Shown piece after piece: positions 1,339-63,562 of a DNA stretch of 64,000 bases (positions are counted from its first letter, which is position 1; every line of letters begins with the position of its first letter). The translations under genes were made by a program, and so were the position numbers. The DNA lies in contig QBYG01000003.1 in NCBI GenBank assembly GCA_003282945.1, positions 1-64,000 on the forward strand, written 5' to 3'. The notes under the pieces are model-generated. The model did not search any database. It was not told the DNA's origin and saw nothing but the letters and a program-made list of their open reading frames with translations. The stretch comes from Pelagibacteraceae bacterium AG-325-E23. Lineage in GTDB: Bacteria > Pseudomonadota > Alphaproteobacteria > Pelagibacterales > Pelagibacteraceae.

Positions 1339-1351
1339 TATAAATTTTTTT

Positions 1352-47171: not shown

Positions 47172-48002
47172 TTAAAGATCTAAAAACCTAATCAAAAAAA
47201 GAGTTCCTATAACATACAAGAATACACCGAACATTCTTTGAGTTTTATTTTTATCTGAATTGTGAACCATATTTGCTCCAACCTGAGCCATGAAAGATGT
47301 AATTGGGATAAATATTAAAAAAGCAGGAATATTTACAAAACCTAAACTCATAGGAAGATTTGCATTTAATATGAAACCAGATGTCAAAAAACCAATTGAG
47401 CCAATAGATGCTATTACAAAACCTATTGCGGCAGAACTACCAATCGCTCTACTAATTGGGTACCCAAAATATCTTAGAATAGGAACATTCATCATAGCTC
47501 CAGTTATTCCCATAGGAGCAGATATAAAGCCTGACAAAAAACCAAACATAGCTCTTGGAAAAAATTTAAATTTTTTACTTTTCTTTAATTCTTGATTTAC
47601 TATTAACAAATATCCTCCAAAAAAATAGACAACAACAGCAAAAAATAAAACTAAAGATTTTGTATTTAACAATGCAGCCATATAAGTTCCAAGCAAAACA
47701 CCTAATATTACAAAAACCCCAAAAGTTTTTAAAATATTTGTATCTACAGCTTTATGTTTTCTATGAGTCATAACCGAAACAAAGGCGGTAAATATTGTAA
47801 TAGAAAAAGCCGTGCCCACTGAAAGATGCATTAAATAAGATTTATCAACATTTGATGTTTCAAAAATAAAAAAAAGTACAGGTACAGAAATTAGTCCTCC
47901 GCCTATCCCAAAATAGCCTGCAAAAAATCCTACTGGAAATGCAGTAATAATCATTAATAAAATTAAAAGATAATACTGATTAGAGAGAATAGTATTAATC
48001 AA
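47172..48002 (-). CDS. TauE/SafE family sulfite/anion exporter
   Basis: 276 residues from the TTG at 48002 (TTGATTAA overlap with the dus stop); a frame to 48059 would overlap dus by 65 bases and is rejected. About eight membrane helices in two repeats; family motifs are GFFAGYFGIGGGLISVPVL near 28-46 and GFLSGFISAPMGITGAMMNVP in the second half. Members move sulfite, sulfoacetate or other anions. Because ComA-type enzymes in this window hint at sulfonate chemistry, sulfite export is of interest, though the genes are 42 kb apart. Confidence 0.85.
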   Translation of the reverse strand: MINTILSNQYYLLILLMIITAFPVGFFAGYFGIGGGLISVPVLFFIFETSNVDKSYLMHLSVGTAFSITIFTAFVSVMTHRKHKAVDTNILKTFGVFVILGVLLGTYMAALLNTKSLVLFFAVVVYFFGGYLLIVNQELKKSKKFKFFPRAMFGFLSGFISAPMGITGAMMNVPILRYFGYPISRAIGSSAAIGFVIASIGSIGFLTSGFILNANLPMSLGFVNIPAFLIFIPITSFMAQVGANMVHNSDKNKTQRMFGVFLYVIGTLFLIRFLDL

Positions 48003-48996
48003 TTCGACCTGCCGAATGTAATTTAGAAGAAATTCTAACTTTATCCATAATATGATCAATTTTTTTTACATCCGCATCTCTTACACACATATTTTCACTT
48101 AAATATCTTTTCCAATGGCTTGAACCTGTTTGTCCATGGAATAAACCAAGAGTATGTCTCATAACTTGATTTACTCTTGTACCCATTTTCACTTGGGCTT
48201 TAACGTAATCTATTAATTCCTCAACAATTTCTTCTCGTTCTTTAATATCATGATTGTTAAATATCTCCTTTTCAATATCAGCCAAAATATAAGGAGAATG
48301 ATAAACAGACCTTCCAATCATTGCTCCATCCACTTTATCTAAATGATCTTTTAGTTCTTCCACTGAAGTGACACCTCCATTAATAATTATTTCAAGGTCT
48401 TTAAAATCTTGCTTTAGTTTGTACACATAATCATATTTTAAAGGAGGTATATTAAGATTTTGCTTAGGGGTAAATTTGCCAAGCATTGCTTTTCTTGCGT
48501 GAATTATAAAAGTTTTAACTCCCGTCTCCTTTAAAGTTTTTATGAAATTATAAAAATGTTCATAATCCTCAATATCGTCATAACCAATTCTCGTTTTAAC
48601 TGTAACTGGCAAAGATGTTGAATTAATCATCTCTGATAAACAATCAGCCACTAAATTTGGTTCCTTGATTAAACACGCGCCAAATCTATTTTTTTGAACT
48701 TTTTTACTCGGACAACCTAAGTTTAAATTAATTTCATCATAACCATAATCTTCACCAATTTTTGCAGCATTTGCTAATAATTTTGGCGTAGACCCACCTA
48801 ATTGTAAAGCAACTGGTTTTTCTCTTAAATCAAATGATAATAGTTTATCTTTATCCCCCCTATCAATTGCTTCAGAAACTACCATTTCTGTGTAAAGAAG
48901 TACATGTTTGCTTATCAATCTTAAAAAGTATCTTTCGTGCCTATCAGTGCAATCCATCATAGGGGCAACTGACACCAATCTATTAATCTTAGACAT
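47995..48996 (-). CDS. dusA: tRNA-dihydrouridine synthase (DusA type)
   Basis: 333 residues: VAPMMDCTDRHERYFLRL near 9-26, NLGCPSKKVQKNRFGACL (catalytic Cys), VTVKTRIG, HARKAMLGKFTPKQN and GGVTSVEELKDH. The D-R-H start and KxxLGxxxP-type loop fit DusA, which reduces U20/U20a. FMN-dependent. Overlaps malonyl-CoA decarboxylase by eight bases and the TauE gene at its stop. Confidence 0.93.
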   Translation of the reverse strand: MSKINRLVSVAPMMDCTDRHERYFLRLISKHVLLYTEMVVSEAIDRGDKDKLLSFDLREKPVALQLGGSTPKLLANAAKIGEDYGYDEINLNLGCPSKKVQKNRFGACLIKEPNLVADCLSEMINSTSLPVTVKTRIGYDDIEDYEHFYNFIKTLKETGVKTFIIHARKAMLGKFTPKQNLNIPPLKYDYVYKLKQDFKDLEIIINGGVTSVEELKDHLDKVDGAMIGRSVYHSPYILADIEKEIFNNHDIKEREEIVEELIDYVKAQVKMGTRVNQVMRHTLGLFHGQTGSSHWKRYLSENMCVRDADVKKIDHIMDKVRISSKLHSAGRID

Positions 48997-50296
48997 ATTT
49001 TTTAACTTTATTGGATATATTAACTTTCTTCTCGTTTACATATTCTTGGTGATTTTTCTCAATTTTTGCTAATTCATATCTATAATTAACCATTACCCCA
49101 AAAGACCTTTTAAAACCTACCTCTGAAACGTTTGCATTTATGGCAATATCATCGATATCAGCTCCGTTTTTAAGATGAAACCTACAAACATCATTAATTG
49201 GAAACCCAAAATCATTTTTCTGTTTTACTAAATAATTTACAGCAAGTTTGCTTATCATAGGCTTATTATCAGCTATTCGTTTATCTCCTATTTTTAAATC
49301 AGATGATTTTAAAAAATCTAAACTGTTTTTATTAGCTTCACCTAAAATCTCTGCTGCTTGATTACTATCCATTTTTTTAAACCAATTGGCAAATCCAACC
49401 ATTGGTGACAAAGTTCCAAAATATTTTATATCTGTAAGTTCTTCTTGAAGCTCGTAAACAACTCTTTTGATTAAGAAGTTTCCAAGTGTTACTCTTGATA
49501 ATCCTTCTTGGCAGTTACTAATTGAGTAGAAAGTTGCTGTATCATATTTTTTTAGGTTTTCATCTGAAGGTCTTGTTAATTCTTGTATAGATTGACTTAA
49601 TCCTTTGGTTAAAGCTATCTCAACAAATATTATAGGCTCGTCTTCTAAAGCGGGATGAAAATATGCAAAGAATCTTCTATCTTTTCCAAGTCTTCTTTTT
49701 AATTCATTCATATCTTTCATTGAATGAACTTTTTCATATTTTAATAATTTTTCTAAAATATTTGCTTTGGTGTCCCATGTTATTTTTCTTAGCTTTAAGA
49801 AGCCAGGGTTAAACCAATTTTTAAATATATCGATTAGATCATAATCCAAACTTTTTAATTCTGGCTTATCCCTCATTAATTTTACTAAATCTTCTCTTAA
49901 TGAAACAATCTCAGATGTACCATTAGGAGCCATATTTAATCTAACAAATAGTTCTTTTCTAATGCCAGAGGTAACTTTTGATAAATTTAGAATTGAGTAA
50001 TCATCTTGAGCAACGCTGTATTTCTTAATAGCCTCATCAATTTTTAATGGATCTGGTTTATACTTTTCATTAACGTCAACTAAAAATTTATTTTTTTCTT
50101 CATTAGATAAATTTTGATATCTAAATAATATATCTCTTGCTAATGTAATTCCAAAAGCTGCTCCTTTAGTAGACAACAGGTCATCACAAAGATCTAATAG
50201 ATCTCTTTTTTTTGCAATACTTTTAAAGGATTTTTTTTCTAAAATCTTTTGTCCAGCATCAGCTATGGTCTCAAAAATTCTTTTTATATTTAACAT
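48989..50296 (-). CDS. Malonyl-CoA decarboxylase
   Basis: 435 residues, normal for the bacterial MCD family. N-terminal helical domain followed by an acetyltransferase-like catalytic domain with DRRFFAYFHPALEDEPIIFVEIAL near 207-230, FYSISNCQEGL (Ser and Gln), SPMVGFANW and a C-terminal HLKNGA. Makes acetyl-CoA and CO2 from malonyl-CoA. It follows the TRAP genes by 15 bases on the same strand, with a CoA transferase divergent from the cluster, consistent with malonate use. Confidence 0.93.
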   Translation of the reverse strand: MLNIKRIFETIADAGQKILEKKSFKSIAKKRDLLDLCDDLLSTKGAAFGITLARDILFRYQNLSNEEKNKFLVDVNEKYKPDPLKIDEAIKKYSVAQDDYSILNLSKVTSGIRKELFVRLNMAPNGTSEIVSLREDLVKLMRDKPELKSLDYDLIDIFKNWFNPGFLKLRKITWDTKANILEKLLKYEKVHSMKDMNELKRRLGKDRRFFAYFHPALEDEPIIFVEIALTKGLSQSIQELTRPSDENLKKYDTATFYSISNCQEGLSRVTLGNFLIKRVVYELQEELTDIKYFGTLSPMVGFANWFKKMDSNQAAEILGEANKNSLDFLKSSDLKIGDKRIADNKPMISKLAVNYLVKQKNDFGFPINDVCRFHLKNGADIDDIAINANVSEVGFKRSFGVMVNYRYELAKIEKNHQEYVNEKKVNISNKVKKYV

Positions 50297-50311
50297 GATG
50301 TTTTTTATATA

Positions 50312-51643
50312 TTAAAAACCTAAACTTTTGCCCATTATTTTATCAGGAAGCCAAGTTACAATTTCAGGAAAAATACACAAAATTAATATAGCTAAAGCCA
50401 TAATTATCATAAAAGGTATAGATCCTTTTAATATTTCAGACAAACTAACGTCTGGCGTAATACCCTTGATAATATAAAGGTTTAGTCCAACGGGTGGAGT
50501 AATAAGACCAATTTCCATATTTATCGTAAATACAATTGCAAACCAATACGGATCAAATCCCAAAGTAGTTATAACTGGTAACAATATTGCAGAGGTCATT
50601 ACTATAACGGCAACTGGTGGTAAGAAGAAACCAGCTATAAGTAAAAAAATATTAATTAAAATAAATACTACCCATTTGTTAGAGCTTAACTCGACCATGC
50701 TCTGGGCTAAAGATTGTGTTACGTAAAGTTGTGATAAGGTAAATGCAAAAAGGTAAGATGCAGCAATAATAAACATTATCATCACACTTTCTTTCATTGA
50801 AACTTTAACAATATTCCATATTTTTTTTGGTTGATAAATTTTGTAAACAACAGCGATCAATACAAAAACTAAAAAAGCACCAACACCTGAAGCTTCTGAA
50901 GGTGTCGCAACTCCACCATATAACACGTATAGGACACCAGCAATGATAGCTAAGAAAGGAAGTATTCTTGGTAACACTTCAATTTTTTCTTTTAATGTTG
51001 GGGGTGTTCTATTCTTTAAAGCTCTCGCAGAATCTTTGTCAATAAAATAACTATGTATAAGAGCCCATATTGCAAACATACCTGCCAACATAAACCCTGG
51101 TATCAAACCACATAAAAACAATCTTCCTATTGATGTTCCGGTTGCAATTCCATAAACAATTAAAACAATACTTGGAGGGATTAAAACTCCTAAAGTTCCA
51201 CCGGCTGCTATTGTTCCTGTTGCTATTTGATCTGAGTACCCTCTTTTTCTCATCTCAGGTATACCCATGGTTCCAATTGCTGCACAAGTTGCAGGACTTG
51301 ATCCACTTAGGGCAGCGAAAACTGAACAAGCCCCAATATTAGAAATTACTAGTCCACCTGGAACCCTCCAAAGCCATCTATCTAACCCAGTATATAAATC
51401 TTTTCCAGCTGGAGAGTTAGCAACAGCCATTCCCATTAAAATAAACATTGGTATTGAAAGTAAAACAAAAGAATTTAATCCAGCATAAAATGTTTCTGCA
51501 AAAACATCTAACATTTGAAAGCCTTCAAATGTAACTAAAAGTGCTATTGAGACAAAACTCAGACCAAATGCAATTGGTATTCCAGAAAATAAAACTATCA
51601 ACGTGAAAACTGCAACTATTATTGCTATTAATAAAGGATCCAT
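50312..51643 (-). CDS. TRAP transporter large membrane subunit (DctM family)
   Basis: 443 residues, 12-13 membrane helices. Family features: LLSIPMFILMGMAVANSPAG, CAVFAALSGSSPATCAAIGTMGIPEMRKRGY, GTLGVLIPPSIVLIVYG and LLPVITTLGFDPYWFAIVFTINMEIGLITPPVGLN. Carries the substrate using the sodium or proton gradient. Start overlaps the stop of dctQ as TAATG. Context points to malonate or another dicarboxylate. Confidence 0.93.
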   Translation of the reverse strand: MDPLLIAIIVAVFTLIVLFSGIPIAFGLSFVSIALLVTFEGFQMLDVFAETFYAGLNSFVLLSIPMFILMGMAVANSPAGKDLYTGLDRWLWRVPGGLVISNIGACSVFAALSGSSPATCAAIGTMGIPEMRKRGYSDQIATGTIAAGGTLGVLIPPSIVLIVYGIATGTSIGRLFLCGLIPGFMLAGMFAIWALIHSYFIDKDSARALKNRTPPTLKEKIEVLPRILPFLAIIAGVLYVLYGGVATPSEASGVGAFLVFVLIAVVYKIYQPKKIWNIVKVSMKESVMIMFIIAASYLFAFTLSQLYVTQSLAQSMVELSSNKWVVFILINIFLLIAGFFLPPVAVIVMTSAILLPVITTLGFDPYWFAIVFTINMEIGLITPPVGLNLYIIKGITPDVSLSEILKGSIPFMIIMALAILILCIFPEIVTWLPDKIMGKSLGF

Positions 51644-52137
51644 TATTTACCATCCTCCTCATCAACAAGCTTAATAATTTCTGCTACATATTGAAGTATC
51701 ATTAGTACAGCTCCAATCATCATAGATGAATAAGGAATCCATAAAGGCGGGTCCCAAACTGTTCCTGTTGAATAATTTTTAGTAAAAGCTTCTTCAACCA
51801 TTAAATAACCAAAATAGAATAAAATTATAAAAAATAATAAGCTAATTAATGAGGTAAATATTTTAAGTCTTAGAATATTTTTTTTTGATAAAAAATCATA
51901 AATCCACTCCATGCTAACATGCGCTTTCTCACTTAAGACATAAGCACTACCAATAAATGTTGAAGCAACTAAAAGCATTGTAACTAGCTCTGTTTGCCAT
52001 GTGATTGCTCTTTGAAAAAAGTATCTTTCAAATACTAATTCAACGATTACCAAAATTGATAATATTAAGGCTAGAACTGCAAAAGCACCACATGCCTTTG
52101 AGGAAAAACTACAAAATTTTAAATATTGTTCTTTCAT
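51643..52137 (-). CDS. TRAP transporter small membrane subunit (DctQ family)
   Basis: 164 residues with four membrane segments and the DctQ pattern (ITWQTELVTMLLVASTFIGSAYVLSEKAHVSMEWIYDFL near 43-81). Pairs with DctM. The ATG follows directly on the seven T of the hairpin after the binding-protein gene, so its translation must rely on a very short upstream region. Ends in an acid-rich KLVDEEDGK tail. Confidence 0.88.
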   Translation of the reverse strand: MKEQYLKFCSFSSKACGAFAVLALILSILVIVELVFERYFFQRAITWQTELVTMLLVASTFIGSAYVLSEKAHVSMEWIYDFLSKKNILRLKIFTSLISLLFFIILFYFGYLMVEEAFTKNYSTGTVWDPPLWIPYSSMMIGAVLMILQYVAEIIKLVDEEDGK

Positions 52138-52172
52138 AAAAAAACCCCCACTTAATATTCTAAGTAGGGGTT
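52138..52172 (-). terminator. Hairpin plus T7 between dctP and dctQ (probable attenuator)
   Basis: Bases 52143-52154 and 52161-52172 form a 12-bp stem on the minus-strand RNA (one G-U pair at 52149/52166) with a 6-base loop. It is followed by a T run ending at the dctQ ATG: the seven bases 52144-52138 are all T on that strand, two of them shared with the stem. It lies 13 bases after the dctP stop. Same layout as in the first TTT operon. Confidence 0.8.
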
Positions 52173-52184
52173 CTTTATATTGTT

Positions 52185-53195
52185 TTACTTAACTGCTAAA
52201 GCCATTTCCATAAGTTTGTCTCCACCTGGTACTTTTTTGGCGAACTCTTTATGCGAAGTTTGTTTTGCAATTTCAATCCATGCAGCATGGTCTTCTGCCG
52301 TCATGTAAGCTAATTTAACACCTGCAGCTTTATAAGCATCTTCAAATTTCTTATCTAAATTTGCTACTTGAGCTGTCATATATTTCTCTGCAACTTTTCC
52401 TGCTTTCATTAAAGCATCTTGTTGTTTTGCATTAAGTTTATCAAAACTCATTTTTGACATTAAAATTGGCTCATACATAAACCATAGACCATATTCTCCT
52501 GGAGGAGTTGCACAAGTAACTTGTTCGTAAATTTTGTAACTTACAAAGCTTCCAGAACTTGTGTTTGCACCAGTTAATACACCAGTTTGTAGACCAGTAT
52601 AAATCTCAGAAGATGGCATACTTTGTATTCCAGCACCTGCACCAGCTAACATTTGGTTAAATGCTTTACCAGCAGCTCTCATAACTTGTCCTTTAACATC
52701 AGATGGATTTGTTATGCAGTTAGTTTTAGAGGCAAAACCCCCACCTAACCAGGCGTCAGATAAAACAACTACACCTGCATTATTAATAATTTTTTTAATT
52801 TCTACCATCATAGGTGATTTATTAAAACGTAATGCATGGTCATGATTTTTTACAGTGCCAGGCATAAGAGTTGCATCAAATTCAGGATGGAATTTTGCAG
52901 CGTATCCTAACGGAAAAGCAGATATATCTAGCTGACCTGTAGTCATTGGTTTCCACTGTTCTTTTGGTTTGTAAAGTGATTTTGCAGGATAAATTCTGAT
53001 ATCTATATCAACACCTGCTTTTTTAACTTCATCAGCAATTATTTGAACCATCTCGTGTCTTGGATCATATGAACCATCTGCTCTAGGCGTTCCTGGCCAT
53101 TGGTGACTTGCTTTTAATGTCACAGCATATGCTGATCCGATCAATGAGAAAGCTAAAAATAATGTTGTGAAATAAAAACTAATTTTTTTAAACAT
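52185..53195 (-). CDS. TRAP transporter periplasmic binding protein (DctP family)
   Basis: 336 residues. Sec signal peptide ending SAYA (about 23). The mature start VTLKASHQWPGTPRADGSYDPRHEMVQ and the central KGQVMRAAGKAFNQMLAGAGA are typical DctP; the Arg in this region usually salt-bridges the ligand carboxylate. GGGG Shine-Dalgarno 7 bases upstream and a promoter with near-consensus boxes. Likely ligand malonate or a related acid, inferred from the neighbouring decarboxylase and CoA transferase. Confidence 0.9.
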   Translation of the reverse strand: MFKKISFYFTTLFLAFSLIGSAYAVTLKASHQWPGTPRADGSYDPRHEMVQIIADEVKKAGVDIDIRIYPAKSLYKPKEQWKPMTTGQLDISAFPLGYAAKFHPEFDATLMPGTVKNHDHALRFNKSPMMVEIKKIINNAGVVVLSDAWLGGGFASKTNCITNPSDVKGQVMRAAGKAFNQMLAGAGAGIQSMPSSEIYTGLQTGVLTGANTSSGSFVSYKIYEQVTCATPPGEYGLWFMYEPILMSKMSFDKLNAKQQDALMKAGKVAEKYMTAQVANLDKKFEDAYKAAGVKLAYMTAEDHAAWIEIAKQTSHKEFAKKVPGGDKLMEMALAVK

Positions 53196-53231
53196 ATTAT
53201 TTCCCCTCTTTAGATTAATTTAATAAGTTAT

Positions 53232-53260
53232 ATTAAATTGAACTTAAGACTAAGAGTCAA
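53232..53260 (-). promoter_or_regulatory. Promoter of the TRAP operon
   Basis: Minus strand TTGACT (53260-53255), 17-base spacer, TTTAAT (53237-53232), 37 bases before the dctP ATG. The boxes lie in the gap before the divergent CoA transferase ATG at 53289, which supports that start. Nearly identical to the promoter at 63516-63544. Confidence 0.5.
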
Positions 53261-53288
53261 TATAAGTAATTGTCATATAATTGAAGTT

Positions 53289-54431
53289 ATGGATGGACCA
53301 TTAAAAAATTTATTAGTTGTTGATTTAACAAGGGTTTTAGTTGGACCTTATTGTACAATGATACTCTCCGATTTAGGTGCGAGAGTTATTAAAATTGAAG
53401 CTCCAGAAATAGGTGATGACTCGAGAAAATTTGGTCCTTTTGTTAAAGATTATTCTGCATACTTTATGTCCCTAAATAGAGGAAAAGAAAGTATTGCTTT
53501 AAATTTAAAGAATGAAGATGACAAAAAAATATTTGAAAAAATATTATCTAAGGCTGATATCTTAGTTGAAAATTTTAAGCCTGGCACATTGGATAAATGG
53601 GGTTTTGGTTGGAAAGATGTAAGTAAAAAATACCCTAAATTAATTTATGCATCTGCATCCGGTTTTGGACAAACTGGACCTTTAAAGGAATTACCTGCAT
53701 ACGATATGGTGGTTCAAGGAATGGGTGGTTTAATGAGTGTAACAGGCCATCCAAATTCTGAACCTACCAGAGTTGGAACATCTATTGGGGACATCACTGC
53801 TGGATTGTTTACTGCAATAGGAATAAATGCAGCTTTGTATGATAGACAGAAAACGGGTAAAGGTGCTTTTATTGATGTATCTATGCTAGATTGTCAGATT
53901 GCAATTTTAGAAAATGCAATTGCAAGATATCTCTCTAAAAAAGAAATTCCTGGTCCGATGGGTTCAAGACATCCCTCTATCGCTCCATTTGAAGCATTCA
54001 AAACAAAAGATAGTTACATAATCATTGCAGCTGGGAATGATAAACTTTTTTCAAAACTTTGCGATGTATTAAAAATTTCTGAAATAACAAACGATGAAAG
54101 ATTTAATTCTAATTCATTAAGATGTGAAAATATGAATCAATTAAAAGAAATTTTTGAAAAAAAATTAAGTTTAAGAACTACAGATGAATGGGTCAAAGAA
54201 ATGGAGGAATTAAAAATTCCTTGTGGGCCAATTTTTAACATTAAACAGGCTGTCGAAAATCCTCAAATCAAAGAGAGGAATATGATTATAAAATCTTATC
54301 ATAAAGTAATTGGAGAATTTAAATCAGCAGGAAATCCTATAAAAATGTCTACTTACAAAGACGAAGAAACTAGAGGGGATATACCCGATTTAGATGAACA
54401 CAGAGAAAAGATAATAAAAGAATTTGGTTAA
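53289..54431 (+). CDS. Class III CoA transferase (CaiB/Frc family)
   Basis: 380 residues from the ATG at 53289 (MDGPLKNLLVVDLTRVLVGP), chosen because conservation starts here and an upstream frame would cover the TRAP promoter. Family marks: GPYCTMILSDLGARVIKIE near 19-37, FMSLNRGKESIALNLK, ADILVENFKPG, and PAYDMVVQGMGGLMSVTG. It would move CoA between acyl groups, perhaps activating malonate to malonyl-CoA for the decarboxylase. It is divergent from dctP with only about 90 bases between. Confidence 0.88.
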   Translation: MDGPLKNLLVVDLTRVLVGPYCTMILSDLGARVIKIEAPEIGDDSRKFGPFVKDYSAYFMSLNRGKESIALNLKNEDDKKIFEKILSKADILVENFKPGTLDKWGFGWKDVSKKYPKLIYASASGFGQTGPLKELPAYDMVVQGMGGLMSVTGHPNSEPTRVGTSIGDITAGLFTAIGINAALYDRQKTGKGAFIDVSMLDCQIAILENAIARYLSKKEIPGPMGSRHPSIAPFEAFKTKDSYIIIAAGNDKLFSKLCDVLKISEITNDERFNSNSLRCENMNQLKEIFEKKLSLRTTDEWVKEMEELKIPCGPIFNIKQAVENPQIKERNMIIKSYHKVIGEFKSAGNPIKMSTYKDEETRGDIPDLDEHREKIIKEFG

Positions 54432-54956
54432 CTATTCTTGATTTTCTGTTTCTGAAGCCTCAGATACAGTTTCCTCTTGATCTTTCATTTCGTCTAAAGA
54501 AACATCAACTTCATCTTCTTGTGCTTCTTCAACCGGATCAGAACTATGTTGCTCAGTAGTATTTTGTAATTCGGCTAAATCATCTTTTGATACTTGAATT
54601 TTTTCTGGAATTTTTCTTGCTCTTTTAGATGGGAGTATTGGAACACCACTCTTTGAAATTTCACCTTTATAAAGATTTTCAAAATCATCGCCTATATCAT
54701 CTTCATCTTCAGATGTATCATCAACTTGCTCAACATGTTTTCTTAATTTATAAACTGCTGCATCAGTTAAATCTGGAACTTTAATTGTTTCTTCAGCTAT
54801 CTCTCTTAATGCTATAACGGTGTTTTTATCGTTATCTCTATCTAATGTTGGCTCTAATCCTGAATTAAGTTGTGTTGCTCTTTCTTTTGCAACCAATACT
54901 AATTCGTAAGGACTATCAACTTTATCTATACAATCTTCAACTGTTACTCTTGCCAT
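54432..54956 (-). CDS. rpoZ: RNA polymerase omega subunit with long acidic C-terminal tail
   Basis: 174 residues. Residues 1-65 match Rpo[31 protein letters not shown], then the [13 protein letters not shown] helix. From about 75 to 174 the chain is a low-complexity acidic tail rich in Glu, Asp, Ser and Gln (for example [18 protein letters not shown]), longer than the tails of usual omega (70-130 residues). Omega helps assemble and stabilise core polymerase. Stop codons of this gene and the CoA transferase are adjacent. Confidence 0.9.
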
Positions 54957-54998
54957 GGACGATTTGATACACCTCGATTATAAAAAAATCAAGCAGTA

Positions 54999-56207
54999 TT
55001 AGAGATAAACTGGATTTAATTTTTTTCGTATAGTGAAAAGTAAGGCTATAGAGCATGCTATAGCAATTGCTGCAATAAATGCGATTTTTTCAATTGAAAA
55101 TCCAGCATCTATAAAAAAGCCAAACAATGCTGTACCAAAAGCAGTTGCAAATACCATCAAAGCTGTAGTCAAAGCTTTAATAGATCCAATATATTTTACA
55201 CCGTAAATTTCTGCCCATGTTGATGATCCTAATAAGTTAGCTAGACCGTTTGATATTCCAACCAATCCAAGAAATAAAAAAGCAGTTAGTTGAGCATCAA
55301 AATATATGATCACTAAAGTTCCTAAGAATAATGGAATATTCATATAGATAAGTAATTTTCTACTTGTAAACTTATCAATTAAATATCCAGCAACAATTAA
55401 AGTAATTACAGAAAAAATTGAGTAAGACATAAAAGATTGAGCAATTGTATATTCACCCCACCCTTTTGAATTTGTGACAAATGATTGATACACAAATACT
55501 CCTGTTGCTATCCAGGGCATTGCCAACATATTTAATGAGACAATGTAAAATCTATAATCTCCAAGAACCTCTATTCTTTTCCAGTTTTTAATATTGTCCT
55601 CTTTTAATTTTTCATTTTGAGTGCTCTCTCTGGTATCTAATTTGACATCTTTAACTAAAATATAAGATGCCAACGGTAGGCAAATTAAAACTATTAAAGA
55701 AAAGATTACCCATAAATTCTGCCAAACAATTAGAGTTAAAAGATAAACAATTAATACAGGCATTATGAACTCTGCTGAAGATAGACCAAACCAAATAATG
55801 CTTAAGGCTTTACCTCTAGATTTTGTAAAATATCTTGAAATAGTAGTTGAAGCTGTGTGAGACATTAATCCTTGCCCAGAGAACCTCATTAAAAAAATCG
55901 CAACAAATAAGAAAGCTACTGATGATGTTTTGGAAAAGAAAAAAGAGGAAAAAGATAAAAGTATCGTAACAAAGATTGCAAATTTTATCACATTTACATC
56001 ATCAATTTTTTTTCCAATCCAAATAAGAAGCAAACTACTAAATAGAGTTGCAGATGCATAAATCGTGCCAAATTGTCCATGTGTTATAGAAAGAGTTTCT
56101 CTTATACTAGAATTAAACAGTCCTATAAAAAAACTCTGTCCAAAACACGAAAAAAATGTAAAAATAAAACCAAAAATAATTACTTTTAAACTTAAACTTT
56201 TAAACAT
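54999..56207 (-). CDS. MFS transporter
   Basis: 402 residues, 12 predicted membrane helices in two halves, with typical MFS loops after helix 2 (IGKKIDDVN) and in the middle (KLDTRESTQNEKLKEDN). The layout resembles oxalate/formate or monocarboxylate-type carriers, but no substrate-specific motif is recognised. It lies 12 bases from the divergent GlxR-like dehydrogenase gene, so the two may share a control region. General family sure, substrate unknown. Confidence 0.85.
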   Translation of the reverse strand: MFKSLSLKVIIFGFIFTFFSCFGQSFFIGLFNSSIRETLSITHGQFGTIYASATLFSSLLLIWIGKKIDDVNVIKFAIFVTILLSFSSFFFSKTSSVAFLFVAIFLMRFSGQGLMSHTASTTISRYFTKSRGKALSIIWFGLSSAEFIMPVLIVYLLTLIVWQNLWVIFSLIVLICLPLASYILVKDVKLDTRESTQNEKLKEDNIKNWKRIEVLGDYRFYIVSLNMLAMPWIATGVFVYQSFVTNSKGWGEYTIAQSFMSYSIFSVITLIVAGYLIDKFTSRKLLIYMNIPLFLGTLVIIYFDAQLTAFLFLGLVGISNGLANLLGSSTWAEIYGVKYIGSIKALTTALMVFATAFGTALFGFFIDAGFSIEKIAFIAAIAIACSIALLFTIRKKLNPVYL

Positions 56208-56218
56208 ATAAATAATTT

Positions 56219-57094
56219 ATGACATGTAATGTTGCTTTCATAGGTCTCGGGGTAATGGGTTATCCAATGGCTGGTTATATATCAAAAGCTGGACATAATG
56301 TAAGTGTTTTTAATAGAACAACTGCTAAAGCAGAAAGATGGATTTCTGAATATAAAGGTAAAATGGCTTCAACACCAAAAGAAGCTGCAGAAGGTGCTGA
56401 TTTTATTTTTACTTGTGTAGGTAACGATGAGGATTTGAAACAAGTTACTTTGGGTGAAAATGGATTATTTCATAGTGCTAAAGAGGGTTCGATATATGTA
56501 GATAATTCAACTGTGTCTGCAGAAGTATCTAGAGAACTGTATAATAAAGCAAAAGAAAAAGGATTTGCTTTTTTAGATGCACCAATTTCTGGAGGCCAAT
56601 CTGGAGCTGAAGGTGGAATTTTAACAGTAATGGTTGGTGGTGATGAAGAAGCTTTTAAAAAAGCAGAACCAGTTATTGATTGCTATAGCAAAAAAGTAAA
56701 ATTAATTGGTCAATCAGGAAGTGGTCAGCTTACAAAAATGATGAATCAAATGTGTATTGCGGGAGTTGTTCAAGGTTTATCAGAAGCTATTAATTTTGGA
56801 ATAAATGCTGGATTAGATATTGATAAAGTAATGGAAACTATATCAAAAGGTGCAGCACAATCTTGGCAAATGGAAAATAGATATAAAACTATGGTTGAGG
56901 ATAAATTTGATTATGGTTTTGCAGTTGATTGGATGAGAAAAGATCTAAAAATTGTGATTGAGGAAGCAAAGAGAAATGGTTCACCTGTTCCAATTACTGA
57001 AATAGTTGATGAATATTATGCAGATGTTCAAAAAATGGGTGGAAATCGTTGGGATAGTTCTAGTCTAATCGCTAGACTTAAAAAAAAGAAATAA
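56219..57094 (+). CDS. 2-Hydroxy-3-oxopropionate reductase / 3-hydroxyisobutyrate dehydrogenase family
   Basis: 291 residues, exact family length. Rossmann motif VAFIGLGVMGYPMAGYI at 5-21, substrate loop FLDAPISGGQSGAEGG near 118-133, catalytic lysine in GSGQLTKMMNQM near 172-183. Closest by motifs to tartronate semialdehyde reductase (GlxR) or HIBADH. NAD(P)H enzyme for short hydroxyacids. Second such dehydrogenase in the window (the other at 5497-6504 is divergent and longer). Confidence 0.87.
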   Translation: MTCNVAFIGLGVMGYPMAGYISKAGHNVSVFNRTTAKAERWISEYKGKMASTPKEAAEGADFIFTCVGNDEDLKQVTLGENGLFHSAKEGSIYVDNSTVSAEVSRELYNKAKEKGFAFLDAPISGGQSGAEGGILTVMVGGDEEAFKKAEPVIDCYSKKVKLIGQSGSGQLTKMMNQMCIAGVVQGLSEAINFGINAGLDIDKVMETISKGAAQSWQMENRYKTMVEDKFDYGFAVDWMRKDLKIVIEEAKRNGSPVPITEIVDEYYADVQKMGGNRWDSSSLIARLKKKK

Positions 57095-57098
57095 ACCA

Positions 57099-57704
57099 AT
57101 GACAAATACTGTCCCATACTATGAGGACTTTTCCGAAATAAAAAAAAAAATTTGGTTAATGCTTGATGATGCTGTAACGAATAGATCGTCACCATTTCGA
57201 ATTCCAGTTTTTGTTTGTGGTGATCAGTCAGACTTTGATGGAAGAATTGTTGTTCTTAGAAAATCAGACCAATCTAGTAATATACTTCAATTCCATAGCG
57301 ACATTAGATCAGACAAAATTTCAAAATTAAAAAAAAATAAAAATGCTGCACTTATATTTTACGATAAAGAAGAAAAAATTCAGCTTCGAGTTAAAGTTAA
57401 TTGCATAGTCAATCATGAAAATGAAATAACTGAGCAATCATGGTCAAAAACTGCACACGTGAGTCGAAAATGTTATTTAGTAAACAATGGACCAGGAACA
57501 GAAACGGATGAACCAAGTTCAGGTTTAAGTGAAGACATTGAAAAATCAGGCTTTACCATGGAACAAAGTGAAGAGGGTTATAAAAACTTTACTGTAATTC
57601 AATGTAATATTGAAAGTATTGAGTGGCTTTATCTTGCAGCAAAAGGTCATAGAAGAGCAAGGTTTGATATTTCAAATAATAAACAAAACTGGCTAGTTCC
57701 ATAA
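57099..57704 (+). CDS. Pyridoxamine 5'-phosphate oxidase-like FMN protein
   Basis: 201 residues with the split-barrel flavin fold: RIPVFVCGDQSDFDGRIVVLRK near 39-60, QFHSDIRSDKISKLKKNKNAALIFYD (FMN phosphate contacts) and a C-terminal EWLYLAAKGHRRARFD. This fits the Alr4036/Pyridox_oxase_2 subgroup, whose members may not make PLP. Follows the GlxR-like gene after four bases. Possibly a general FMN oxidoreductase. Confidence 0.75.
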   Translation: MTNTVPYYEDFSEIKKKIWLMLDDAVTNRSSPFRIPVFVCGDQSDFDGRIVVLRKSDQSSNILQFHSDIRSDKISKLKKNKNAALIFYDKEEKIQLRVKVNCIVNHENEITEQSWSKTAHVSRKCYLVNNGPGTETDEPSSGLSEDIEKSGFTMEQSEEGYKNFTVIQCNIESIEWLYLAAKGHRRARFDISNNKQNWLVP

Positions 57705-57706
57705 AA

Positions 57707-57907
57707 ATGCTAAGTGGATTTATTATTGCTATAGCGCTTGTTTTAGGGGGATTGGCAGTAATGAGATTTGGCATTTTTCAAATCAGAAAATTTAAAAAGG
57801 GAGAGACTAAAGTCACAAAAAAAGTTAGTGAGCAACTAGCTTTTATAATATTTTTTTTAATTATTTTAGGTTTAATAATTTATTCTGTTAATGATTTATT
57901 ATTTTAA
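57707..57907 (+). CDS. Small membrane protein of unknown function
   Basis: 66 residues with two hydrophobic segments (about 3-23 and 46-64) and a basic cytoplasmic loop between (KFKKGETKVTKK). No family recognised. Begins two bases after the flavin protein gene and shares its stop tetranucleotide TTAA (57904-57907) with the convergent carbonic anhydrase gene. Confidence 0.65.
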   Translation: MLSGFIIAIALVLGGLAVMRFGIFQIRKFKKGETKVTKKVSEQLAFIIFFLIILGLIIYSVNDLLF

Positions 57908-58416
57908 AAAACTGATTTAGAGTATTTTTTCCAATTTTCTTGATATCTAATTGCATTTTGCTTTACCGCCTTAATTTCATCTTTCGTTAACTGGCGAATT
58001 ACTTTTCCAGGTGATCCTATTACTAAAGAATTATCTGGAATTTCCTTACTTTCTGTAATTAATGATTTAGCGCCAATAATGCAATTTTTTCCAATTTTAG
58101 CTTTATTAAGAATTACAGCCCCAATACCAATTAAAGAATTGTCACCAATTGTACAGCCATGAAGCATAACCAAGTGACCTATGGTTACATTCTTTCCAAT
58201 TTTTAAAGGGTAACCTGGGTCAGTGTGCAAAACACTCCCGTCTTGAACATTTGACCCCTCTCCTAAATGAATATTTTCTATATCACCTCTTAGTGTTGCA
58301 TTAAACCAGACGCTAGAGTTTTTCTCTAATGTTACGTCGCCTATTATGACAGCATTAGGTGCTACCCAATTTTCGCCAAGGTTTTTTGGTTTTTTATCTT
58401 TTAAATCGTAAAACAT
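57904..58416 (-). CDS. Gamma-class carbonic anhydrase-like hexapeptide protein
   Basis: 170 residues of left-handed beta-helix. Family motifs VWFNATLRGDIENIHLGEGSNVQDGSVLHTD near 36-66 and GHLVMLHGCTIGDNSLIG carry the three His expected to bind zinc (or iron). CaiE/PaaY/YrdA relatives have this size; many are gamma carbonic anhydrases, others unproven. Convergent with the small membrane protein gene; divergent from the thioredoxin-like gene (20-base gap). Confidence 0.88.
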   Translation of the reverse strand: MFYDLKDKKPKNLGENWVAPNAVIIGDVTLEKNSSVWFNATLRGDIENIHLGEGSNVQDGSVLHTDPGYPLKIGKNVTIGHLVMLHGCTIGDNSLIGIGAVILNKAKIGKNCIIGAKSLITESKEIPDNSLVIGSPGKVIRQLTKDEIKAVKQNAIRYQENWKKYSKSVF

Positions 58417-58436
58417 AAATTATATAGTCTTTTAAC

Positions 58437-58988
58437 ATGGCATTAACTAAAACACCAATATGTGACTTTGGTAAAAAAGCTGATTACTTTCAACTTAAAT
58501 CAATAGACAACAAAATAATTTCCTTGAATGATGCAAAGGGTGAAAATGGAACACTAATAATGTTTATCTGTAATCACTGTCCATATGTATTAGCTGTCAT
58601 AAATAATGTTGTCGAAGACTGCAAAAAATTAGAAAATGTTGGAATTAAATCTATAGCAATAATGTCAAATGACCCCAATAGATATGCAGAAGATTCATTT
58701 GATAACATGATTAAATTTTCAAAAAATAATGATTTTAATTTTCCATATTTAATAGACGAAACGCAAGAAGTGGCTAAAACTTATGGTGCAGTCTGCACTC
58801 CAGATTTTTTTGGTTATAATAAAAATCTTGAACTTCAATACAGAGGTAGAATTAGAGAATTAAAAAATTTAAAACCAATTGAAAGTGGTGAAAGTGAACT
58901 AAAAATTGCTATGAAAATGATTGCAAAAACTAACAATGGTCCAAAAGAGCAATTTCCAAGCATGGGCTGCAGTATTAAATGGTTTTAA
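58437..58988 (+). CDS. Thioredoxin-fold redoxin (AhpC/TSA-like) protein
   Basis: 183 residues with the pattern of thioredoxin-family proteins having an N-terminal redoxin start (FGKKADYFQLKSIDNKIIS), MFICNHCPYVLAV near 42-54 (CxxC pair), AKTYGAVCTPDFFGY (cis-Pro side) and PSMGCSIKWF at the C-terminus. No signal peptide, so probably cytoplasmic. Acts as a thiol oxidoreductase or peroxiredoxin-like protein. Confidence 0.8.
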   Translation: MALTKTPICDFGKKADYFQLKSIDNKIISLNDAKGENGTLIMFICNHCPYVLAVINNVVEDCKKLENVGIKSIAIMSNDPNRYAEDSFDNMIKFSKNNDFNFPYLIDETQEVAKTYGAVCTPDFFGYNKNLELQYRGRIRELKNLKPIESGESELKIAMKMIAKTNNGPKEQFPSMGCSIKWF

Positions 58989-58994
58989 CAACTA

Positions 58995-60077
58995 ATGTAT
59001 TTAATAGTAACTAGAGCTTTTCCTCCTGAATTAGGAGGTATGCAAAATCTCATGTGGGGATTAACAAGATCTCTCTCAAAACTTAATTTAATAAAAGTAT
59101 TTGCAGATTATCATGAAAATCATGAAGAGTTTGATAAATCAGTTTCATTTTCAATAGAAAGAGTAAGTGGAATGAAGCTTATTAGAAAATATAGAAAATC
59201 ATATATGATTAATGATTATCTTGAACAAAATAACAATGTTGAGTGTATTATTGCTGACCATTGGAAAAGTTTGGAGCTTATAAAAACAAATAAAAAAAAA
59301 ATCTGCTTAATTCATTCAAAAGAGATTAATCATCCAAAAGGTTCAAGTTTAAATAAAAAAGTATTATCAGTTCTAAATAATGTTGATTATATTGTAGCAA
59401 ATTCCAACTATACAAAAAATTTAGCCATTGATTTGGGGGTAGAAGAAAAAAAAATAATGATTATTAACCCTGGAATTGATCCAGTAGTTGAAGTTCCACA
59501 AAAATATTTAGATGAGGCAGAGGATATTCTAAAAGGTAAAAAAAAGAGACTAATTACAGTTTCAAGATTTGATAAAAGAAAAAATCATGAAAAAGTAATC
59601 ATGGCTGTTAGAAACTTAAAAGAAATCTACCCTGATATTACTTACACTTGTATTGGGTATGGCGATGAAGAAGATAAATTAAAAAAACTAGTAATTGAAT
59701 TGAAATTAGAAGACCAAGTCACCTTTTTAAAAGATATACCTTCAGATTTAAAAAATGCTCTTGTAGCAAAGTCAGATATTTTTGTAATGCCTTCAATAAT
59801 TTTCAAAAAATCTGTTGAAGGTTTTGGTATTGCTTATGTAGAAGCTGCACAATACGGCGTTCCGTCAATTGGTGGAAAAGATGGAGGTGCTTCAGACGCA
59901 ATTATACATGAAAAAACTGGTTTAATATGTGATGGCAATAAACTTGAGGATATTTATTCAAGTATAGACAACCTTTTTAGAGATAATAAATATATAGAAT
60001 ACGGAAAAGAAGCAAAAAATAATTCTGAAAACTTTCTTTGGGATAAGGTAATTGAAAAATATAAGAGAATCTTATAA
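58995..60077 (+). CDS. GT4 family glycosyltransferase
   Basis: 360 residues, GT-B fold. Begins with RAFPPELGGMQNLMWGLTRSL (donor-side glycine loop), VSRFDKRKNHEKVIMAV near 193-209, and the Glu-x7-Glu motif EGFGIAYVEAAQYGVPSIGGKDGG near 275-298. Adds a sugar from a nucleotide-sugar donor, probably in surface glycan synthesis. Starts six bases after the redoxin gene. Acceptor unknown. Confidence 0.88.
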   Translation: MYLIVTRAFPPELGGMQNLMWGLTRSLSKLNLIKVFADYHENHEEFDKSVSFSIERVSGMKLIRKYRKSYMINDYLEQNNNVECIIADHWKSLELIKTNKKKICLIHSKEINHPKGSSLNKKVLSVLNNVDYIVANSNYTKNLAIDLGVEEKKIMIINPGIDPVVEVPQKYLDEAEDILKGKKKRLITVSRFDKRKNHEKVIMAVRNLKEIYPDITYTCIGYGDEEDKLKKLVIELKLEDQVTFLKDIPSDLKNALVAKSDIFVMPSIIFKKSVEGFGIAYVEAAQYGVPSIGGKDGGASDAIIHEKTGLICDGNKLEDIYSSIDNLFRDNKYIEYGKEAKNNSENFLWDKVIEKYKRIL

Positions 60078-60086
60078 AATAATCAT

Positions 60087-60506
60087 ATGATTTCTAAATT
60101 TAATAACATTTTCTACTTAATTGTATTTCTTGCACATTTTATAGCGATAACCGCATATTGTTTTCAAACAATTGTTGGAACCAAAAAATTTATGGATAAG
60201 TTTGGTATAGATCATAGTGCAGCTGTTATGGTTAGATTTGTTGGAGCGCTAATGCTTGGTTGGGTAATAATGGCTATTTATATATTGTTTGTTAGACCAA
60301 ATGGAATTGAAGGTACTTGGGCATTTTTTAATTTAATATTTATCATACATGCATGCGTTTTAGGAACAAATTTCTACTCGCTTAAGATTGATAAAACTGG
60401 TCTAAATGAAAAAGTTACAAATGAAGGGATTATAGCGCCAACAGTGTTTCTAATAATGATGGCTATACTTTGTTACGGTTTGTCAGATAAAATTTATATT
60501 ACTTAG
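60087..60506 (+). CDS. Membrane protein of unknown function
   Basis: 139 residues with four hydrophobic segments (about 7-28, 50-68, 78-97, 115-133). No family recognised. It follows the GT4 gene by nine bases. Its TAG stop overlaps the TAA of convergent tctA (TTAG at 60503-60506). Confidence 0.65.
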   Translation: MISKFNNIFYLIVFLAHFIAITAYCFQTIVGTKKFMDKFGIDHSAAVMVRFVGALMLGWVIMAIYILFVRPNGIEGTWAFFNLIFIIHACVLGTNFYSLKIDKTGLNEKVTNEGIIAPTVFLIMMAILCYGLSDKIYIT

Positions 60507-62008
60507 CCCTTAGTCTTTTTAAACATAGTTTTATATATATGCCAAACTACAATTAATATTGTGGTTAACAAAATACATGTAGTAAGAGTTCTATCCCATA
60601 AAAATTCCCAAGATCCATTACTTAACAATAAAGATCTTCTTAAATTCTCTTCCATTAATCCACCTAGAACAAATGCAAGAATTAATGGTGGCATCGGAAA
60701 ATCATAAAGCCGCATAAAAGTTGCAACAACTGCAATTCCTATCATTAAGTAAATGTCAAAGTTATTAAATGACATTACATAAATTCCAGTAATAGAAAAA
60801 AATAGGATTAATGGGATTAGATAATTTTTTGGAACAGCTAAAATTCTTGCAATGTAAGGTATGAGAGGTAAGTTTAAAATTAATAATATCACCATCCCAA
60901 TATACATTGACATAATTATGGACCAAAAAATCTCGGGATTTGTCATGTACAATCTTGGTCCAGGCTGAACTCCAAAACCTAATAAAGCCCCTAGCATAAC
61001 TGCAGTGGTTCCACTCCCGGGAATACCTAAAGTAAGCATCGGAACAAATGATCCTGAACATGCTGCATTATTTGCTGTTTCTGGAGCTGATAAACCATTA
61101 ACACTGCCTTTACCAAATTTTTCTTTTTCCTCGTCGTTCACTATATTTCTCTCCATTCCGTAAGCTAAAAAAGAAGCAATAGTCGCTCCTGCTCCCGGTA
61201 AAACTCCAATTAAAAAACCAATTACAGATGATCTAGGGATTGTCTTATACAATTTGGTTCTTTCTTCCTTATTTATTTTAATTGAACCAAGTTCTGTTAA
61301 TGAAACTTGTTTAGCAGCACTAGTAGGATCATTTCTTTTCAAGATTATAGTTAATGCTTCACTCATTGCAAAAGTTGCCATAACAACAAGAACAAAACTG
61401 ATACCATCAGTTAAATTCATATTGTTAAATGTAAATCTTGTAATATCAGATAAGCTATCTTGACCAACGGATGCTAGCATTAATCCTAGAACTACCATCA
61501 TCATAGCTTTTAAAAACTGACCCTTTGAAGAAAAAGCAGCAATAGCTGTCAGGCCTAAAATCATTAACGCAAAATAATCAGGCGATCGAAATGACAAACT
61601 TACTTTCGATAAACTTGGAGCCAAAAATAACAAATAAATTGCTGACAATGTACCACCAGCAAATGAACTCCAAGCAGCAATTGCTAACGCTTTACCTGCC
61701 TTACCTTGTTGTGCCATTGGATAGCCATCAAAAGAAGTTGCAACCGTACCTGGAACACCAGGTGCATTTAATAAAATTGATGAGGTTGAACCTCCAAATA
61801 CCGCTCCATAATAAACACCTGCCATTAAAATTAAACCAGTTGCTGGATCAAAACCATAAGTAATAGGTATCATTAAAGCAATTGCTGTCATTGGACCAAG
61901 TCCTGGTAACATTCCAATTATTGTTCCAAAAAAACATCCCAGCATTACCATTAAAATATTTTGGAGAGTAAGTGCTGTTGTTAAACCAATTAGAATTCCT
62001 TCAATCAT
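60503..62008 (-). CDS. tctA: TTT transporter large permease (TctA family)
   Basis: 501 residues, normal TctA size, about 12 membrane helices. Signature GTIIGMLPGLGPMTAIALMIP near 28-48, GGSTSSILLNAPGVPGTVATSFDGYPMAQQG near 71-101 and the second-half GVLPGAGATIASF and GIPGSGTTAVMLG. Works with the TctB and TctC genes upstream; ATGA overlap with tctB. Unlike the fused permease at 1352-3337, the subunits are separate here. Confidence 0.93.
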   Translation of the reverse strand: MIEGILIGLTTALTLQNILMVMLGCFFGTIIGMLPGLGPMTAIALMIPITYGFDPATGLILMAGVYYGAVFGGSTSSILLNAPGVPGTVATSFDGYPMAQQGKAGKALAIAAWSSFAGGTLSAIYLLFLAPSLSKVSLSFRSPDYFALMILGLTAIAAFSSKGQFLKAMMMVVLGLMLASVGQDSLSDITRFTFNNMNLTDGISFVLVVMATFAMSEALTIILKRNDPTSAAKQVSLTELGSIKINKEERTKLYKTIPRSSVIGFLIGVLPGAGATIASFLAYGMERNIVNDEEKEKFGKGSVNGLSAPETANNAACSGSFVPMLTLGIPGSGTTAVMLGALLGFGVQPGPRLYMTNPEIFWSIIMSMYIGMVILLILNLPLIPYIARILAVPKNYLIPLILFFSITGIYVMSFNNFDIYLMIGIAVVATFMRLYDFPMPPLILAFVLGGLMEENLRRSLLLSNGSWEFLWDRTLTTCILLTTILIVVWHIYKTMFKKTKG

Positions 62009-62475
62009 CCCATAACTCCAATTGATTGTAAAAATGGATCTCTTAAATAAATATCAAGAACGCCATGAAGCAAATACATAAAAGCTGCTACAAAAGGAAA
62101 AGACAATAGGAACATTAAGACCCATCTTCTCTCTCCTAAAAAATAATATGATGAGAACAAAAATAATGATGTAGTTAAAAAATAACCAACTTCTAAAATT
62201 GTAGCACCATAAATTATCGCAATAACAATAAGTATCGCTGTTTTTTTATATTCTAAAGTTTTATGTTGAACTTTTATTGTATTTGGATCTGGTAAAATTA
62301 GTTTTAATCCTGAAAAAAAAAGGCCTGCATAACCTAGATAAATTGGGAATGTTCTTGCATTAAATGGTGCATTTTCATCAAATGCAAAAACTTGAATTTG
62401 ATATGCTGTATATAAATAAAATGCTGAAAATATAAAAAAGAGCAGTGATATAACTTTTGTAGTATTTATATTCAC
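62005..62475 (-). CDS. tctB: TTT transporter small permease (TctB family)
   Basis: 156 residues with four membrane segments (about 6-24, 47-60, 77-95, 110-135), matching TctB: an early VISLLFFIFSAFYLYTAYQ helix, ARTFPIYLG and a late GVLDIYLRDPFL. I use GTG at 62475 as start. The first dozen codons are also the stem of a hairpin followed by TTTTTT on the transcribed strand, so the sequence is both coding and structural. No Shine-Dalgarno evident. Confidence 0.85.
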   Translation of the reverse strand: MNINTTKVISLLFFIFSAFYLYTAYQIQVFAFDENAPFNARTFPIYLGYAGLFFSGLKLILPDPNTIKVQHKTLEYKKTAILIVIAIIYGATILEVGYFLTTSLFLFSSYYFLGERRWVLMFLLSFPFVAAFMYLLHGVLDIYLRDPFLQSIGVMG

Positions 62476-62480
62476 TGCTC
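62434..62480 (-). terminator. Hairpin plus T6 overlapping the start of tctB (probable attenuator)
   Basis: Bases 62440-62448 (GAGCAGTGA) pair with 62472-62480 (TCACTGCTC) in a 9-bp stem, extended by four more pairs after a one-base bulge (62449-62452 with 62467-62470), loop 14 bases. On the minus strand it is followed by six T (62439-62434). The hairpin begins 22 bases after the tctC stop and contains the GTG of tctB. Confidence 0.7.
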
Positions 62481-62502
62481 TAATATTTAATAATCGTTAA
62501 GA

Positions 62503-63483
62503 TTATATAACTCCTAATTTCTTCATAAGAGCTGTCATTTCTTCAGTTTGTTTTTCTAAGAAAGAGACAAACTTACCTTCTGGATTGTAAATATTAACCC
62601 ATGCATTTCTTGCTCTAACAGTTTCCCATTCAGAAGTTTTTTGTACATCGCCTAACATTTTAGCAATTTTAGCTTTATCAGCACTGCTCATTCCTGGAGG
62701 CCCAAAGAACCCTCTCCAGTTAACAAATTGTACATCATAACCCTGTTCTTTTAGAGTTGGTGCATCTGGAGCATCAGAAACTCTTGAAGGGGCTGTAATA
62801 CCAATAATTCTTACTTGGTCTCGAGCGCCCATAAGTTCACCTAAACCTGTAGAAATAATTTGTGTTTCTCCAGATAAAAGTCCAGCTAAAGCTTTTCCAC
62901 CTGCATCATAAGGAATGTATGCTACATCATTTGGATTAGCACCAGCAGCTTGGAAAGCTAAGGCACCAATTAAATGGTCCATACTTCCTCTTACTGATCC
63001 ACCAGCCATTTTAATAGAGCTTGCATCTTTTTTATATGCATTAACTACATCTTCAAAATTTTTATATGGTGAATTTTTTGCAACTGCTATAGCACCGTAA
63101 TCTCCAATAACACCAGCTATTGGCACAACATCTTTATAAGATAAAGTTCCACTTCCACTTACATAACCTTTGTGTCTTGTAATTGATCTTAATACTAATG
63201 GTGTTGATTGAACTAAGACTGTATTTGCAGGCTTATTATTAATCATGTAAGCTAACGCCTTTCCACCACCACCACCTGACATATTTTCAAATGATGCACT
63301 TTTTAACATACCAGCTTTTGTTAAAGCTTCTCCAGTACCTCTAGCAGTTCCATCCCAACCGCCACCAGCACCACCCCCAATTACAAAATGCAATTTATCA
63401 ATTGCTATTGAACTAGTTGCTGTTGCTGAAAATATAAGGATTGCTGAGAATAAAACTGAAATTATTGATTTAATTAGTTTCAT
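62503..63483 (-). CDS. tctC: TTT transporter periplasmic binding protein (TctC family)
   Basis: 326 residues, standard length. Signal peptide 1-27 (cleavage near SSIAID). Mature start LHFVIGGGAGGGWDGTARGTGEAL has the Gly-Gly-Gly-x-D/N-x-x-A loop for the ligand carboxylate, and IPYDAGGKALAGLLSGE is the second family motif. AGGAGA ribosome site 7 bases upstream; promoter with consensus -35. First gene of tctC-tctB-tctA. Substrate unknown. Confidence 0.93.
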   Translation of the reverse strand: MKLIKSIISVLFSAILIFSATATSSIAIDKLHFVIGGGAGGGWDGTARGTGEALTKAGMLKSASFENMSGGGGGKALAYMINNKPANTVLVQSTPLVLRSITRHKGYVSGSGTLSYKDVVPIAGVIGDYGAIAVAKNSPYKNFEDVVNAYKKDASSIKMAGGSVRGSMDHLIGALAFQAAGANPNDVAYIPYDAGGKALAGLLSGETQIISTGLGELMGARDQVRIIGITAPSRVSDAPDAPTLKEQGYDVQFVNWRGFFGPPGMSSADKAKIAKMLGDVQKTSEWETVRARNAWVNIYNPEGKFVSFLEKQTEEMTALMKKLGVI

Positions 63484-63515
63484 TATATTTTCTCCTATTA
63501 TAATTATAATTAGTT

Positions 63516-63544
63516 ATTAAACATAAATTAAGATTCAGTGTCAA
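63516..63544 (-). promoter_or_regulatory. Promoter of the tctCBA operon
   Basis: Minus strand TTGACA (63544-63539, consensus -35), 17-base spacer, TTTAAT (63521-63516), 33 bases before the tctC ATG. Shares the 79-base gap 63484-63562 with the divergent AbrB-family gene, so the two genes may be regulated together. Confidence 0.55.
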
Positions 63545-63562
63545 CGAGGATTTATTCCTTAC

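Follow-up and report, generated by a model that had tools for sequence, protein, structure and literature searches.

A stem-loop after the binding-protein gene of transporter operons looks close to a rule in SAR11 bacteria

A stable stem-loop just downstream of the substrate-binding protein (SBP) gene looks close to a rule for transporter operons in SAR11: among 41 genomes it is present at 204 of 221 SBP junctions, and in 44 of 46 SBP protein clusters. We think it quite probable that these stems are leaky terminators, barriers to decay from the 3' end, or both, and that they raise the ratio of SBP to permease; termination, decay protection and a translational effect are all predicted here from sequence.

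Results

Three SBP-first operons in one stretch of DNA

The window, which is the whole 64,000-nt stretch of DNA that was analyzed, contains three transporter operons that begin with an SBP gene: one of the TRAP class (dctP-dctQ-dctM) and two of the TTT class, which we call TTT1 and TTT2. Their features are listed here, with stem cores placed relative to the SBP stop codon and folding z-scores calculated against dinucleotide shuffles.

TRAP operon
52185-53195, minus strand: dctP, TRAP SBP gene (DctP, PF03480; Pfam E = 3e-38)
52145-52170, minus strand: stem-loop core CCCCTACTTAGAATATTAAGTGGGGG, +15 to +40 after the dctP stop, z = -5.3
52138-52144, minus strand: T7 tract, adjoining the dctQ ATG (52137-52135)
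51643-52137, minus strand: dctQ (PF04290, by Pfam), the first permease gene 3' of the stem
50312-51643, minus strand: dctM (PF06808, by Pfam), 1-nt overlap with dctQ

TTT1 operon
3384-4457, minus strand: TctC-like SBP gene (phmmer 1.6e-10 to a TctC)
3345-3367, minus strand: stem-loop core GCTGCTAGCTATTAGCTAGCAGC, +17 to +39 after the SBP stop, z = -2.9
3338-3344, minus strand: T7 tract, adjoining the tctA ATG (3337)
1352-3337, minus strand: 661-aa TctA-family permease (PF01970, by Pfam)

TTT2 operon
62503-63483, minus strand: SBP gene (TctC, PF03401, by Pfam)
62440-62480, minus strand: stem-loop core, +23 to +63 after the SBP stop, z = -5.2
62434-62439, minus strand: T6 tract within the tctB coding sequence, coding for Phe-Phe
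62005-62475, minus strand: tctB (PF07331, by Pfam)
60503-62008, minus strand: tctA (PF01970, by Pfam), 4-nt overlap with tctB

As the initial annotation had claimed, a stable hairpin and a run of T follow the SBP gene in all three operons, with cores starting at +17 (TTT1), +15 (TRAP) and +23 (TTT2). In two of them the T7 tract ends exactly at the permease ATG: along the minus strand the order is core (52170-52145), T7 (52144-52138) and ATG (52137) in TRAP, and core (3367-3345), T7 (3344-3338) and ATG (3337) in TTT1. TTT2 had been described as sharing the layout of the other two, but there the sole tctB start codon (GTG, 62475-62473) sits in the 5' arm of the stem, and the stem overlaps the first tctB codons and so is not intergenic.

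No stem was found at the dctQ-dctM or tctB-tctA junctions of these operons, and none of the other co-directional junctions of the window has such a stem. No Rfam family matched in the window. A consensus terminator scan over positions 48000-64000 missed the stems of TRAP and TTT2 owing to its strict rules on loop and tail. The TTT1 SBP (3384-4457, minus strand) has no Pfam match at 1e-3; lying directly 5' of the 661-aa TctA, it reads as a divergent TctC. Two genes of the ComA family (phosphosulfolactate synthase, PF02679) flank the TTT1 operon, at 544-1368 (minus strand) and 4609-5472 (plus strand), one of them overlapping the end of tctA, which hints at a sulfonate-related substrate for this transporter.

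Stems are associated with SBP genes

We surveyed about 1.2 Mb from three Pelagibacterales genomes: the window's own (G000), a complete genome from the same genus (G012), and one from another family (G025). Genes were called, the best stem near every stop codon was taken using a custom stem finder, and SBP genes were assigned mainly through independent Pfam searches; gene starts were assigned mechanically, and the stem thresholds were our own choice. We considered genes with a co-directional neighbor at most 150 nt away, and scored stems of -13 kcal/mol or better that start within 45 nt. Such stems are present at 25 of 30 SBP genes and at 9 of 796 other genes (Fisher P = 2e-35). That tally takes in four genes treated manually: three SBPs that were entered in this way, one of them spotted by its stem, and TTT2, which was passed although its stem extends into tctB. 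Leaving all four out gives 21 of 27. When only gaps of 15-150 nt are considered, stems occur at 25 of 27 SBP genes and 9 of 215 other genes. Two of the five SBP genes scored as misses do have a stem on inspection (next-gene start called too early; stem inside dctQ).

These genomes contain almost no spacer DNA–the median gap between other co-directional genes is 2 nt, compared to 63 nt at SBP stem junctions. Other transcription-unit ends seldom have a strong stem (27 of 361 in the three genomes), so the SBP stem is not their general terminator; elsewhere in G000, G012 and G025, intrinsic termination seems to be little used.

The non-SBP genes with strong 3' stems (L165:17587-19299, L187:6677-6967, L201:4879-6144, L164:7911-9182, L173:10573-11928, L143:15215-15658) include those for HU, AmtB, isocitrate lyase, a glycine-cleavage T-like protein and HSP20, which are among the genes that are usually highly expressed. 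A conserved ORF of 76-78 aa (MATV-NWIDHL...; L158:10461-10697, L175:14080-14310), with no Pfam match, has a strong GGGCGCA stem on its 3' side in two genomes of the genus; the L158 copy has no U-tract.

The pattern extends across the order

In the wider survey of 41 genomes, the 221 junctions were grouped into 46 clusters at 50% protein identity, and a stem was required to have -12 kcal/mol or better and a z-score of -2 or lower. Near-identical genomes inflate the junction counts, so counting by cluster is fairer. The families with stems comprise DctP (TRAP), TctC (TTT), TAXI/NMT1_3, and five ABC SBP families. The suggestion in the initial annotation of a genome-wide rule tied to SBP genes is thus borne out, and the rule is in fact order-wide. 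TctC junctions collected later, most of them from genomes new to the analysis, have the stem in 66 of 66 cases with the thresholds left unchanged. In other Alphaproteobacteria, about 5 of 29 DctP junctions have a stem clearly beyond shuffles.

Genuine SAR11 exceptions are the tandem Peripla_BP_6 genes of the genome from the other bacterial family, which have no stem (G025 C2:234825-237158; L192-L194), and one SBP_bac_3 family that also has none. At locus L162 (G000 C10:28000-35000), an SBP_bac_8 gene is followed by an ORF of about 50 codons and then by a stem, GTGCCTATG...CGTAGGCAC, with no clear U-tract.

Selection acts on stem pairing

The stem is kept in all 80 TRAP-junction orthologs that we retrieved, from named Pelagibacteraceae/Pelagibacterales genomes that are mostly single-cell genomes or MAGs. 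In 70 of these 80, a run of 7-9 T lies immediately 5' of the assigned ATG; in the remainder, 1-3 bases separate the T-run from the ATG, or the assigned ORF start falls within the stem. Pairing is preserved through A-U to G-C and U-A to C-G double changes. Across 21 TRAP junctions, 99.0% of arm positions are paired, compared to 50-69% after a one-base slide, and there are ten double-change cells, a count that no shuffle reached, in shuffles that ignore relatedness.

Across the 41 genomes, the build of the stem is very uniform: the core helix mostly has 5-7 G-C pairs and starts between +9 and +52 after the SBP stop, with a median of +21. In comparisons inside each cluster, 78-100% of cells have paired arm positions and double changes recur; a one-base slide lowers pairing in every cluster except cluster 8, whose arms are self-complementary (GGGCCC). 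Selection acts on the pairing of the stem. The stem sequences themselves differ between clusters and stay paired via compensatory changes; the initial annotation had already noted unrelated sequences in the window. We rejected a REP/BIME-type repeat, since stem sequences are not shared across clusters.

Distance from the stem to the permease start falls into three layouts. In layout (a), a free-standing stem is followed by a leader of about 16-57 nt. In layout (b), the stem ends at most 12 nt from the start, nearly always 6-12 nt; T7-ATG in TTT1 and TRAP belongs here. In layout (c), the stem lies in the permease ORF. Layout (b) accounts for 70 of 181 junctions. The T7-ATG fusion is real, but it is one instance of a short distance between stem and start, which is found also without T: aapJ-type junctions have 6-8 nt between the two in 17 of 17 cases, with no U-tract in nearly all, and one DctP family has A7-ATG after the stem. 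Masking of a Shine-Dalgarno sequence was rejected as a common theme, because SD-like motifs are rare after SBPs (1 of 26 ATG-start genes, compared to 18% for the remaining downstream genes and 8.5% after shuffling).

The permease gene itself contains the stem in at least three families: TTT2-type tctB, a second tctB family, and one dctQ family. The start-in-stem layout of TTT2-type tctB is present in 11 of 11 orthologs and in later ones. In the second tctB family, the stem and a U8 tract together encode KRANKSLPFFF (8 of 8 orthologs, plus later ones), and pairing is retained via double changes. The stem inside the dctQ ORF has no clear U-tract; for example, the TRAP operon at G000 C3:92121 has its stem within dctQ, and its orthologs have stabilities of -20 to -25.5 kcal/mol. 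Synonymous recodings matched the observed stability in 4 of 300 cases for the window tctB, 0 of 300 for the second tctB family, and 0 of 300 for a dctQ ortholog.

U-tracts, and what else the stems might be

A U-tract (at least 5 T in 8) follows 143 of the 204 stems (70%), compared to 15.6% of intergenic 8-mers, an excess which indicates that many stems are built as terminators; many have 7-8 T in a perfect terminator layout. All three window stems look like intrinsic terminators, with a stem between the SBP and the next gene and a U-rich tract (T6-T7), and so differ from the malE-malF type of stem, which has no U-tract. However, 61 of the 204 stems resemble the latter type in having no U-tract, and the T-run, which had been taken as part of the rule, is never found in 13 of the 44 clusters. 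In the SBP_bac_8/potD-type cluster it is present in some genomes and absent in others. Given these 13 clusters and this turnover within a single cluster, the conserved element is the stem. The stems without U-tracts and the turnover argue for a function beyond termination, and the two types may have different functions. U-type stems perhaps sit further from the stop codon than non-U stems, but the comparison of cluster medians is suggestive only (p = 0.010 using the GC-core, p = 0.058 using the full helix).

It is possible, though we consider it unlikely, that all the stems are pure mRNA-decay barriers, acting by differential operon decay as at malE-malF, with incidental U-tracts and little termination. 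The stems without U-tracts fit this explanation, as do the presence of PNPase and RNase E/G-type genes in these genomes and the 3' stems of the usually highly expressed HU and AmtB genes. The stems that stabilize SBP segments in E. coli also lack U-tracts (PMC5927463). Pure decay protection does not account for the excess of U-tracts over intergenic 8-mers, for the many stems with 7-8 T in terminator layout, or for the T-run kept in TRAP orthologs.

The word 'attenuator', used in the initial annotation, would mean a regulated switch in which ligand, protein or translation controls readthrough and the SBP:permease ratio varies with conditions. We doubt this strongly: each junction has one stem, with no competing structure in the window folds, and the stop-to-stem sequence is not common to families. 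Single stems without a competing fold are also the arrangement in Clostridia, where the ratio hardly changes from one carbon source to another (PMC9045158). The trp, pyrBI and riboswitch attenuators resemble the window stems in placing a terminator between promoter and structural gene, but the window stems have no leader peptide or competing fold. In favor of regulation, the median core start, 21 nt past the stop, is within the range of ribosome modulation in E. coli (PMC4824070), and the terminator stem of two tctB families has the start codon either within it or 5' of it, so that an initiating ribosome would melt the stem. It is conceivable, but a long shot, that in tctB-type junctions permease translation licenses its own transcription in this way, with the SBP:permease ratio tracking translational capacity or nutrient state.

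Complete termination, in which the SBP gene is transcribed alone and the permeases have their own promoter, is very improbable. The perfect U7-8 stems do look strong, but with 7 nt from stem to ATG, or a start codon in the stem, a transcript from any promoter further upstream still passes the stem, and a promoter inside a GC stem is implausible. Because the T7-ATG and start-in-stem layouts leave no room for a promoter 3' of the stem, permease mRNA in layouts (b) and (c) must, by this reasoning from sequence, read through it. Chance or AT-rich composition can be dismissed almost entirely: T-runs are common in an AT-rich genome, as the frequency in intergenic 8-mers attests, but the Fisher test, folding z-scores, covariation and further TctC junctions all speak against it.

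Discussion

In the explanation that we favor, leaky termination and/or a barrier to 3' decay, the stem at the SBP message's 3' end would set receptor far above permease. Where the stem has a U-tract, as in all three window cases, RNA polymerase most likely terminates there much of the time, which would leave a short SBP mRNA, capped by the stem and resistant to 3'-5' exonucleases, and the permease genes would be made from the remaining read-through transcripts. A stem without a U-tract is most likely a decay barrier only: a cut within the permease portion of a long mRNA would be followed by trimming as far as the stem, and the SBP part would survive. Stems that abut or overlap the permease start probably also lower translation of the read-through RNA. 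In E. coli, terminators a few bp from a stop codon are almost fully repressed by ribosomes, and termination is maximal above about 27-30 bp (PMC4824070); because of this distance effect, many SAR11 SBP stems should be leaky. Some SAR11 stems are near the stop codon, where by analogy a translating ribosome can block termination, which counts against termination at those junctions. In Ca. P. ubique, sfuC, sfuB and sfuA are upregulated 16.0-, 10.4- and 5.0-fold on arrays under iron limitation (PMC2864753), and these fold changes, which are not absolute levels, are weakly consistent with polarity.

Both routes to SBP excess are already known. Cellulolytic Clostridia have partial terminators after SBP genes, with measured efficiencies of 20.7-96.1% (PMC9045158). 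Like the SAR11 stems, which are known here from their sequences, these are single stem-loops just 3' of the SBP gene and before the permeases, with no antiterminator and with U-rich tails of varying quality, and SBP excess was the role proposed for them. The Clostridia cases are confined to ABC importers, whereas in SAR11 the stems also serve TRAP, TTT and TAXI transporters and nearly all SBP families, abut or overlap permease starts, and in many cases have no U-tract. In E. coli, decay stems of the malE-malF type are stable, without U-tracts, conserved in sequence, and often in the next ORF (17 of 26), and there too the substrate-binding subunit is the protected one (PMC5927463). Unlike these, which can lie deep in the next gene, SAR11 cores start 9-52 nt past the stop, most have a terminator U-tract, and their decay role is a prediction from sequence. 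The Rhodobacter puf intercistronic stem-loop, going by the description cited in PMC5927463, is another stem between unequally expressed genes of an alphaproteobacterial operon, although that operon is for photosynthesis and not transport.

Our searches of open-licence literature found no report of an SBP-stem rule in SAR11. What is new is the near-universality of the stem in SAR11 across transporter classes, the turnover of U and non-U types, and the start-overlapping layouts. The pattern first noticed in the window is therefore true, but its constant part was misnamed, being the stem and not the terminator.

SAR11 cells depend on binding-protein uptake. One study places SBPs such as PotD among the most abundant SAR11 proteins (PMC8437039). 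A stem junction at nearly every SBP gene marks where the excess of receptor is probably set. The rule can be checked in metatranscriptomes, where U and non-U stems provide built-in comparison groups, and if it is true, SBP transcript counts would overstate the expression of whole transporters.
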